Assembly: GCA_016794595.1 (NCBI GenBank)
Contig: JAEUJN010000066.1
Location: 1-64,000, forward strand
DNA length: 64,000 nt
Direction: 5' to 3'
Source of the DNA: Kineosporiaceae bacterium
Lineage (GTDB): Bacteria; Actinomycetota; Actinomycetes; Actinomycetales; Kineosporiaceae
The position numbers were made by a program, and so were the translations under genes. Each line of letters opens with the position of its first letter. Position 1 is the stretch's first letter. Of this stretch, positions 17,610 through 63,535 are shown piece by piece. Under the pieces are notes generated by a model. The model had not been told where the DNA came from and made no database searches. It saw only the letters and a list, made by a program, of their open reading frames with translations.

Positions 17610-18497
17610 GTGGCGATCTTTCTCGACAGCAACAGCCTGGTGATCGTCCAGGGGATGACCGGCTCCGAGGGCCGCAAGCACACCCAGCGGATGATCAATT
17701 TCGGCACCAAGATCGTCGGTGGCGTGACCCCCGGCAAGGGTGGCCAGAGTGTGGAGTTCGACGGCGGGGTGAGCGTGCCGGTGTTCGGCTCGGTCTCCGA
17801 GGCCGTCGCGGCCACCGGGGCCAATGTGACCGTGATCTTCGTGCCGGCCAAGTTCACCAAAGGTGCCGTGCACGAGGCGGTGGACGCGAAGATCCCGCTC
17901 GGGGTGGTGATCACCGAGGGGATCGCCGTGCACGACAGTGCCGAGTTCTTCCAGTACGCGCAGAACTCCGGCGCCACCCGGCTGATCGGCCCCAACTGCC
18001 CCGGCATTATCTCGCCCGGGCAGTCCAACGCCGGGATCATCCCGGCCAACATCACCAAGCAGGGCCCCATCGGCCTGGTCAGCAAGTCCGGCACGCTGAC
18101 CTACCAGATGATGTACGAGCTGCGCGACATCGGTTTCACCACCGGCGTCGGCATCGGCGGTGACCCGGTCATCGGCACCACGCACATCGACTGCCTGGCT
18201 GCCTTCGAGGCCGACCCGGAGACCAAGGCGATCGTGATGATCGGCGAGATCGGTGGCGACGCCGAGGAGCGGGCCGCCGACTTCATCAAGGCCAACGTCA
18301 CCAAGCCGGTCGTCGGCTATGTCGCCGGCTTCACCGCGCCCGAGGGCAAGACCATGGGCCACGCCGGCGCCATCGTGTCCGGCTCCTCGGGCACCGCGCA
18401 GGCCAAGAAGGAGGCCCTCGAGGCCGTGGGGGTGAAGGTCGGCAAGACGCCGTCCGAGACCGCCGTGCTGATGCGCGAGATCATCAGTTCGCTCTGA
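17610..18497 (+). CDS. sucD: succinyl-CoA synthetase alpha subunit
   Basis: A 295-aa subunit with the CoA-binding Rossmann domain ([17 protein letters not shown]) and phosphohistidine region. The active-site His lies in the C-terminal stretch [12 protein letters not shown] (about residue 248), and [11 protein letters not shown] and [14 protein letters not shown] are conserved. GTG at 17610 is two bases after the sucC stop with AAGGGAG upstream. A 53-bp palindrome starts six bases after its TGA and can act as terminator. Confidence 0.97.
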
Positions 18498-18502
18498 CCC
18501 CG

Positions 18503-18555
18503 CGCCGAGAGTGCTGATCTCCCCCACTTACCGGGGGAGATCAGCACTCTCGGCG
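18503..18555. repeat. 53-bp perfect palindrome, copy 1 of 2
   Basis: Arms of 23 bp (left begins CGCCGAGAGTGCTGATCT and ends CCCCC) around a 7-nt loop ACTTACC, with no mismatch. It lies between the converging sucD and DUF559 genes and encodes the last residues and stop of the latter. The same 53 bp recur in the same orientation at 19521, with one terminal difference. It could terminate transcription both ways, though no U-tract follows. Confidence 0.95.
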
Positions 18556-19454
18556 TTCAGCATCCGGCGGATGGTGGCGATGACCACGTCGGGACGCCGG
18601 GTGAGGTCGTCCCAGGTGAACCGCAGCACCCGATAGCCGAGCGCGGTCATCAGGTTCTGCCGGCGGCGGTCGGCCACGAACGCGTCCCGGCCGGCATGGG
18701 CGCGGTACCCGTCGATCTCGATGATCAACCGTTCCGCCTCGAACAACAGGTCCACCACGGCGATGATCTGCCCGGTGCCGTCGACGATCCGAGCCCCCGC
18801 CCGCCACCCGGTGATCCCTGCCGAGGTCAGCAGGTCGTGGGTGATCCGCTCGGCCGGGCTGACCGCGCCGCTCTCGGTGAGGGCGGCCAGCCGGCGCAAC
18901 TGAGTGGTCCCGCGGCATCCTGATCGCCGGCGCAGGAGACGGTCGAGTGCGTCCTCGGACAGGATCTGTCGAGAGGACAGCCAGGCGAACAGATCCAGCG
19001 CCTGGGACCACGGGCGCGTGGTCAACAGGTCCACGGCGGTGCGCTCGCGGGAGGTGACCGCGAGCCCGGCGACCCGCACGACGTCCCCGGGCCAGACCCG
19101 GGCACGCACCGGCACCAGGCCGCCTGTGGGCCGGCGGGCCGTCTCGACGATCACCGAGGCCGCGGCCCGCATCGGCCCTGGCTGCCCGGCGTCCGATGCC
19201 GGGAACCGGTGGACGGCGCCGGCCAGCTCGTGCGCGACCACTGCCCCCTCCCAGGTCAGGGCCGCTGCCCATGCTCGTCGCAACGCCGGGTCGGGGGAGG
19301 GCTCGGCGGTCAGTCCGTGGCCCAGAACCCGGCGCCACCGCCTGGCATCGAGCCGGCGTTCCACCTGACGCGGCGTCCACCCCTCGGCGAGCGCCTGGGC
19401 CCGGGTGAAGCTGCCCGCCTGGCGCCCGGCCCGGCGTGGCACGTCGTCCGACAC
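18528..19454 (-). CDS. DUF559 (Vsr-like) nuclease-domain protein with AbiEi-like N-terminus
   Basis: A 308-aa protein. The N-terminal ~45 residues (SFTRAQALAEGWTPRQVERRL) resemble the AbiEi-type winged-helix region often annotated as antitoxin-like. The C-terminal ~100 residues carry the DUF559 core: VVDLLFEAERLIIEIDGYRAH with the D...E.D triad, then DRRRQNLMTALGYRVLRFTWDDL, as in very-short-patch endonucleases. Activity is unproven for the family. The final codons (ESADLPR, stop) are encoded inside palindrome copy 1, and copy 2 lies upstream. GTG at 19454 is my start; a longer frame to 19574 begins inside copy 2. Confidence 0.75.
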   Translation of the reverse strand: MSDDVPRRAGRQAGSFTRAQALAEGWTPRQVERRLDARRWRRVLGHGLTAEPSPDPALRRAWAAALTWEGAVVAHELAGAVHRFPASDAGQPGPMRAAASVIVETARRPTGGLVPVRARVWPGDVVRVAGLAVTSRERTAVDLLTTRPWSQALDLFAWLSSRQILSEDALDRLLRRRSGCRGTTQLRRLAALTESGAVSPAERITHDLLTSAGITGWRAGARIVDGTGQIIAVVDLLFEAERLIIEIDGYRAHAGRDAFVADRRRQNLMTALGYRVLRFTWDDLTRRPDVVIATIRRMLNAESADLPR

Positions 19455-19520
19455 CTGCTCACCGTGCCCCAGCGCGCCTGCCCCGAACACCCGCTCCCGG
19501 GACCTGTGGACAAACTCCGA

Positions 19521-19573
19521 CGCCGAGAGTGCTGATCTCCCCCACTTACCGGGGGAGATCAGCACTCTCGGCA
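19521..19573. repeat. 53-bp palindrome, copy 2 of 2
   Basis: Identical to the copy at 18503 at 52 of 53 positions, including the ACTTACC loop in the same orientation; 22-bp arms remain paired. It lies 8 bp past the stop of the next gene leftward-running gene (19581) and 67 bp upstream of the DUF559 start, so together the copies bracket exactly one gene, about 1.02 kb apart. Confidence 0.95.
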
Positions 19574-19580
19574 CGTGGGG

Positions 19581-54847: not shown

Positions 54848-54889
54848 CGTGATCATGCACTTTCGAATAGTCGAAAGTGCATGATCACG
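54848..54889. repeat. 42-bp perfect palindrome between converging genes
   Basis: Arms of 19 bp (CGTGATCATGCACTTTCGA) enclose a 4-nt ATAG loop. It separates the converging ccdA and AraC genes and contains the AraC stop codon. One strand reads CGAAAGTGCATGATCAC, close to the CGAGAGTGCTGATCTCC arm of the 18.5-kb palindromes, suggesting a related family. It can serve as a bidirectional terminator. Confidence 0.93.
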
Positions 54890-55845: not shown

Positions 55846-55886
55846 CGGCGGGATTGGCTGCGCACCGAGGACACCGAATCCCGCCG
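55846..55886. repeat. 41-bp inverted repeat, copy 1 of 3
   Basis: CGGCGGGATT and AATCCCGCCG form 10-bp arms around a 21-bp centre. The right half, GACACCGAATCCCGCCG, is shared with copies at 56700 and 57170; all three are exactly 41 bp. This copy lies between the divergent AraC and TIGR03086 genes. Confidence 0.88.
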
Positions 55887-56699: not shown

Positions 56700-56740
56700 C
56701 GGCGGGACTTTGTGTGCTCCCACGACACCGAATCCCGCCG
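56700..56740. repeat. 41-bp inverted repeat, copy 2 of 3
   Basis: Left arm CGGCGGGACT (one mismatch to the consensus), right half CACGACACCGAATCCCGCCG. It lies 27 bp past the TIGR03086 stop and just upstream of the DUF559 remnant. Followed by a short GTGAGGCAAC duplication. Confidence 0.88.
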
Positions 56741-56760
56741 GTGAGGCAACGTGAGGCAAC

Positions 56761-57147
56761 GTGAGGCCAGGTGAAGCCTCGGGGAGGCTCGGTCATTGCG
56801 TCCCCACCGGGGTGGTGGCTCACGGCCTGCCCCGGGGGCTCCGCAACCGGCCCGAGAACGGCGCCGCGACGTCCGGCACTCGGCGCCGGTACCGGGACGT
56901 GCGCTACGTCGGGCTGGGGCTGGTGGTCGAACTGGACGGGGCCCTGGTCCACCCGGCCGAGCGGGCATGGCGGGATCGCTGGCGCGACAACGAGTTGACG
57001 ATCGAGGGGGACCGGACCCTTCGCTACGGCTGGCGGGAGGTCGCGGGCCGACCCTGTGCCGTGGCCGGCCAGGTGGGGTCCGGGTTGCGGGCCGCCGGCT
57101 GGTCGGGCGTCCCGCACCCCTGCGGTCCGGGCTGCGCGATCGCCTGA
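56761..57147 (+). pseudogene. C-terminal remnant of a DUF559 (Vsr-like) gene
   Basis: An open frame of 128 codons. From about residue 19 (VAHGLPRGLRNRP, then RRYRDVRYVGLGLVVELDGALVHP, RDRWRDNELTIEGDRTLRYGW, and the WSGVPHPCGPGC end) it matches the last third of DUF559/AbiEi-type proteins, including the V-E-L-D-G strand. Roughly the first 200 residues of a full protein are missing and the preceding ~19 codons are not family-like. It is bracketed by 41-bp inverted-repeat copies at 56700 and 57170. Confidence 0.72.
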
Positions 57148-57169: not shown

Positions 57170-57210
57170 CGGCGGGATTCGGGGCGTCGCCACGACATCG
57201 AATCCCGCCG
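57170..57210. repeat. 41-bp inverted repeat, copy 3 of 3
   Basis: CGGCGGGATTCG and CGAATCCCGCCG give 12-bp perfect arms with a 17-bp centre. It begins 23 bp after the DUF559 remnant stop. The remaining ~245 bp to mdh contain no gene; the mdh promoter must lie there but no clear -35/-10 pair stands out. Confidence 0.9.
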
Positions 57211-58475: not shown

Positions 58476-58512
58476 CGAGGGCGGTTCCCCAGCGGATGGG
58501 GAACCGCCCTCG
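58476..58512. terminator. bidirectional hairpin terminator between mdh and the aquaporin gene
   Basis: A 16-bp perfect stem (CGAGGGCGGTTCCCCA with its complement) around a GCGGA loop lies between the converging genes. Immediately upstream, 58466-58476 reads GATCAGCACTC, an 11-base match to the arm of the 18.5-kb palindromes. Confidence 0.88.
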
Positions 58513-63433: not shown

Positions 63434-63535
63434 AACCCGCTCATACTCCGCAGCTGACAGGCGATACTCCGCAGGTGGTGCCTCTGGCGGCACCCGCGGA
63501 GTATCGCTGTGTCGGCTGCGGAGCATGAGCGGGTT
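63434..63535. repeat. 102-bp nested palindrome between folD and the EEP gene
   Basis: Outer arms of 21 bp (AACCCGCTCATACTCCGCAG..., one mismatch), inner perfect 12-bp arms GCGATACTCCGC/GCGGAGTATCGC, and a GGTGCC/GGCACC core give a long stacked hairpin. ATACTCCGCAG occurs twice directly on the left side. It sits between converging genes and could terminate both, but is far longer than a terminator needs. Confidence 0.88.

Follow-up and report, generated by a model that had tools for sequence, protein, structure and literature searches.

A DUF559 nuclease gene and its flanking palindromes as a putative mobile unit

Introduction

In many bacterial genomes there are short palindromic repeats whose source is, to our knowledge, not known, and DUF559 is a very common protein domain whose function is likewise not known. 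Are the two connected? The question is raised by a locus in the window analyzed here, a stretch of 64,000 nucleotides from a Kineosporiaceae bacterium, in which a DUF559 gene lies between two nearly identical hairpins. The original prediction, made from the sequence of the window, was that the gene and its palindromes form a mobile or gene-conversion unit with the palindrome as cleavage or recognition site. A link between DUF559 and palindromes is not suggested by the titles and abstracts of the open-access papers naming both. If the link is true, it provides a candidate enzyme for orphan palindromic repeats and a function for DUF559, and ties a nuclease fold newly to self-dispersing palindromes; should the enzyme be shown to move palindromes, a new class of element would result.

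Results

Two near-identical hairpins bracket a single gene

Hairpin A (18503-18555) is located at the 3' end of the DUF559 gene and hairpin B (19521-19573) at the 5' end of the unit. The two are identical at 52 of 53 positions and share their orientation and the 7-nt loop ACTTACC, and exactly one gene, the DUF559 gene on the minus strand, is found between them. This is the arrangement originally described, with perfect arms of 22 bp in B against 23 bp in A. The left neighbor, whose stop codon lies near 18497 just ahead of hairpin A, is presumably a succinyl-CoA ligase alpha subunit, judging from a reading of its sequence.

The half-site pattern of the window hairpin gave four matches where shuffled sequences predict 0.03, and its single-stranded DNA folds with -31.4 kcal/mol (z = -12); chance is therefore ruled out as the origin of the window hairpins. 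In the remainder of the 4.95-Mb genome, pattern and DNA searches recovered eight solo relatives; the reversed control gave no match. Across the ten copies of this family the half-site cores GAGAGTGCTGAT and ATCAGCACTCTC are nearly invariant, the outermost and some inner bases are variable, and the palindrome ends differ (CGCC, CATC and GGGT, for example). Six base pairs are altered on both sides, a number reached by 35 of 500 shuffles, and these compensatory changes are suggestive only as evidence of pairing. Identification of the hairpins as intrinsic terminators or as members of an Rfam family was rejected, as there is no T-tract terminator at hairpin A or hairpin B and neither matches Rfam.

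The bracketed gene encodes a two-part protein

The DUF559 gene (18528-19454, minus strand) encodes a protein that scores 39.9 bits against Pfam DUF559 (PF04480), for which the curated cut-off is 20.6 bits (E = 4e-10). Its reading frame is open to a GTG at 19574, the edge of hairpin B. Since homologous sequences cover the long-ORF protein only from about residue 45 onward and the structural model shows disorder over residues 1-38, the true start is likely the GTG at 19454 rather than that at 19574. The stop codon (18528-18530) falls within hairpin A, and the last codons are thus palindrome sequence, in agreement with the original prediction.

The model of the protein (pLDDT 84) has two halves. 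The N-terminal half (residues 40-234; 18873-19457, minus strand) resembles the AbiEi antitoxin (6y8q, Z = 8.9 over 175 aligned residues, rmsd 6.0; PADLOC AbiEi, E = 3.5e-10) and is presumed to bind DNA. The other half (residues 237-345; 18540-18866, minus strand) is a Vsr/I-Bth0305I-like nuclease domain whose structural matches are 3hrl (Z = 13.1), the homing endonuclease I-Bth0305I (3r3p, Z = 12.9) and Vsr (1cw0, Z = 10.8). In an alignment of 29 diverse sequences D275, E286, D288, D302 and R305 are invariant and H293 is nearly so. Judged from their sequences, DUF559 genes are under purifying selection, with dN/dS values between species of 0.15-0.38 that are approximate because stop-to-stop frames were used. 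A search with P0001 found no match in phages and two matches in plasmids, both distant.

The AbiEi-like fold of the window protein brings to mind a defense or toxin-antitoxin gene, in which an AbiEi-type regulator is fused to a nuclease and the palindromes serve as its operators; AbiEi regulation is indeed mediated by inverted repeats (PMC7319586). However, a unit consists of one gene, and no toxin partner accompanies it within the bracket; the palindromes, moreover, occur at both ends of the gene and in many solo copies far from it, and we regard this explanation as highly improbable.

Other palindromes and DUF559 genes in the same genome

The window contains a second DUF559 unit with a different palindrome, as had been predicted, although its gene (56755-57147, plus strand) is truncated to the nuclease domain. 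This gene matches a profile built from the DUF559 proteins of this study (E = 3e-20), and its Pfam score of 15.4 bits lies below the cut-off. Palindromes of the second family (CGGCGGGA...GAATCCCGCCG), which are unlike the window hairpin and have a longer loop, are found on the 5' side of the remnant (56700-56740) and shortly 3' of its stop codon (57170-57210), and a third copy is located outside the unit (55846-55886). Because the N-terminal half is missing, this DUF559 copy is probably dead. The same genome has two further, lower-scoring DUF559-like genes with a separate hairpin pair around each, one on the contig of the window near 145 kb (L426, 693-1942) and the other on contig C34 (L429, 1176-2318). 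The true Vsr gene of the genome (L428) was also checked and has no palindrome bracket.

The window holds additional palindromes. The hairpin CGTGATCATGCACTTTCG-N6-CGAAAGTGCATGATCACG at 54848-54889 is one of about 80 genome copies (159 half sites, with one match in the reversed control); the intervals between closely spaced copies were examined for a cognate gene, and none was found there. Its CGTGATCATGCA core also occurs in the inverted repeats of a DUF559 unit of another genome (G008, L030). Strong hairpins at 63461-63507 and 58476-58512 lie near methylenetetrahydrofolate dehydrogenase and lactate/malate dehydrogenase genes and show no tie to DUF559.

Paired hairpins accompany DUF559 genes at many loci

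DUF559 is present in 193 of the 248 genomes sampled. The survey of flanking repeats comprised 124 DUF559 loci, drawn from a sample across the order together with loci of the family and the genus, with 365 ordinary ORFs and 30 HNH loci as controls. Palindromes are enriched beside DUF559 genes, as the original prediction implied: a strict test for long matching hairpins at both ends detected them at 24 of the 124 DUF559 loci versus none of the 365 ORFs and none of the 30 HNH loci. A looser terminal-repeat score of at least 28 was reached by 65/124, 1/365 and 4/30 loci, respectively. These two metrics replaced an unrestricted repeat comparison, which gave poor contrast with the controls. Terminal repeats were undetectable in about half (~45%) of the sampled DUF559 genes; decay, domestication or a different role may account for the genes lacking brackets.

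The hairpins differ from one bracketed DUF559 locus to the next and occur in direct or inverted orientation. When eleven different ones were searched in 17 genomes, solo copies recurred, among the matches listed, in the home genome or genus only. In G010, twenty solo copies belonging to another family were read; their arms are nearly identical and their loops variable. Similarity between proteins and similarity between their palindromes show a weak, significant correlation (Mantel r = 0.27, p = 0.0016), as would be anticipated were every enzyme to recognize the palindrome of its own unit.

Similar brackets, with another hairpin in each case, occur in several bacterial phyla. Among stand-alone DUF559 genes in plasmid-collection records, 11 of 15 are bracketed as judged by eye and local alignment, in a small set that has no matched control; the bracketed genes come from Deinococcus, Sphingomonadales, Azospirillum lipoferum, Neisseria and two cyanobacteria, and a conserved palindrome pair was not seen at the Methylophaga, E. 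coli, Sinorhizobium and A. brasilense copies. In a Neisseria gonorrhoeae record (L431) the DUF559 gene is flanked on both sides by direct repeats of about 108 nt. Neisseria also has CGTC-type dRS3 repeats.

These data bear on whether the DUF559 genes are passengers, the palindromes being either common transcription terminators or REP-like sequences that some other enzyme mobilizes. In favor of this view, the hairpins are perfect and lie close to the ends of genes, and unrelated hairpins do occupy some intergenic sites in different species. Against it, both window copies lack a T-tract terminator and an Rfam match, a separate palindrome goes with each DUF559 gene, and paired hairpins are absent from ordinary ORFs and HNH genes. 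The Y1 (RAYT-type) transposase PF01797 was absent from 12 of the 13 hairpin-carrying genomes and found in one. We therefore consider the passenger explanation very unlikely.

Gain, loss and relocation of the unit

The locus of one unit, that of G198, was compared among 44 congeners. The DUF559 gene at this locus is carried by G198 and G096, and the hairpin core is likewise found only in these two and in none of the other 42 of the 44. G198 and G096 share the insertion by descent, which makes them one event and not independent carriers. In G187 both flanks are in place with neither the gene nor a palindrome of the G198 family, and when three G198 solo sites were checked in the same genome two were empty and the third was occupied by a different palindrome. 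Within Deinococcus, one species carries the gene inside a paa operon, and the corresponding junction of a second species lacks it. Empty sites of the kind anticipated by the original prediction, having neither gene nor palindromes, thus do exist.

Palindromes of other families were encountered at the same positions. A palindrome of another family stands in G187 (L301, near 1767-1821) exactly where G198 has its own; it was predicted to bracket one of four fetched DUF559 genes of that species, and this prediction failed. A second DUF559 gene of G096 (L348, about 954-2095) has the inverted terminal repeats CCGTCAAATGGATCCATTTGG, and a solo palindrome at the site of the G198 unit in G083 (L250) is related to them.

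The units of two congeners, G006 and G008, are 92% identical and have unrelated flanks, and the outer boundaries of the inverted repeats delimit the shared sequence. Since the identity ends at these repeats and the flanks are unrelated, sequence comparison indicates that the unit moved as a block, and the finding of a whole unit at unrelated loci agrees with the mobility originally proposed. Units are located between unrelated genes.

Gene conversion of the homing type offers another route to this distribution: the nuclease would cut solo palindromes, the gene would be copied in by recombination that duplicates the palindrome, and the solo copies would spread by other means. The relationship of the catalytic domain to the homing endonuclease I-Bth0305I, the 52/53 identity of the flanking hairpins and the presence of solo palindromes in the genome are all compatible with such a process. 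The empty sites examined, however, lack the palindrome of the unit that homing would require as a target, and palindrome families switch between species together with the gene, which calls for spreading linked to the gene itself. We consider homing-type conversion unlikely.

Discussion

A proposed mechanism for palindrome dispersal

It is proposed that palindrome, gene and palindrome together constitute a mobile unit, an analogue of REP/RAYT that employs an unrelated nuclease and copies palindromes; the sequence comparisons make this the probable explanation. On the same sequence basis, the association of DUF559 with palindromes and the mobility of the unit are well supported. Pairing, lineage specificity, recurrence across phyla, empty sites, relocation of the unit with intact ends and purifying selection were each computed directly, and from them we infer that the window protein recognizes and cleaves the palindrome of its own unit and is responsible for the copying.

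The single gene of the unit would yield a two-part protein with AbiEi-like and Vsr/I-Bth0305I-like halves. The palindrome is probably read by the AbiEi-like DNA-binding half; AbiEi itself binds inverted repeats (PMC7319586). The nuclease half probably nicks or cuts at or beside the palindrome when the latter is extruded as a hairpin or single-stranded, and the protein would help to place copies of single palindromes, and at times of the entire bracketed unit, at new intergenic sites. In Caulobacter, the SOS response of cells without a methyltransferase is due to the DUF559 protein VsrA (PMC12907096), which supports the idea that a DUF559 protein can damage DNA in vivo.

The proposal may hold more widely. 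The chances seem to us about even that DUF559 proteins are palindrome-mobilizing nucleases across phyla, which would make them a new kind of mobile element whose sole enzyme is of the Vsr/homing type, unrelated to HUH, DDE, serine and tyrosine recombinases, and which would seed many orphan palindromic repeats.

Comparison with known systems

A homing endonuclease gene inserts into one conserved cognate site, usually in an intron or intein. The DUF559 unit shares with I-Bth0305I (EDxHD/Vsr-like) the catalytic fold (3r3p, Z = 12.9), the conserved acidic and His residues and the logic of a selfish nuclease, whereas DUF559 units are not intronic, occupy many unrelated sites, have palindromic ends and are accompanied by solo palindromes. 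It does not qualify as an ordinary homing endonuclease gene. The Vsr mismatch endonuclease has the same nuclease fold (1cw0, Z = 10.8), and Caulobacter VsrA contains a DUF559 domain (PMC12907096); the Vsr gene of this genome (L428), however, is the unbracketed one described above. The likeness to the type IV toxin-antitoxin system AbiE lies in the antitoxin fold of residues 40-234 (6y8q, Z = 8.9, rmsd 6.0), but no AbiEii nucleotidyltransferase toxin gene adjoins it between the hairpins. REP families that lack a transposase, whether CGTC-tagged or untagged, are likewise dispersed palindromes whose mover is not known (PMC3733652).

The closest parallel is with REP/RAYT, for which flanking palindromes, dispersed copies, co-occurrence and co-evolution are the defining features (PMC2817692). 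The DUF559 unit is not a RAYT because it has neither the enzyme that defines RAYTs nor the GTAG tag: its enzyme is Vsr-like with an AbiEi-like half instead of an HUH/Y1 tyrosine transposase, and the GTAG tetranucleotide found at the palindrome end in RAYT systems is missing in the window family. The comparison drawn in the original prediction accordingly stands as an analogy and not as an identity, the enzymes being unrelated and Y1 being absent from 12 of the 13 genomes. As in REP/RAYT, one nuclease-type gene is positioned between two palindromes, many solo copies exist, and gene and palindrome co-occur and co-vary (PMC2817692). The flanking palindrome is dispersed in the same genome, and the gene tracks its palindrome, both being present at the G198 locus in 2 of 44 congeners and the palindrome being absent in the remaining 42.
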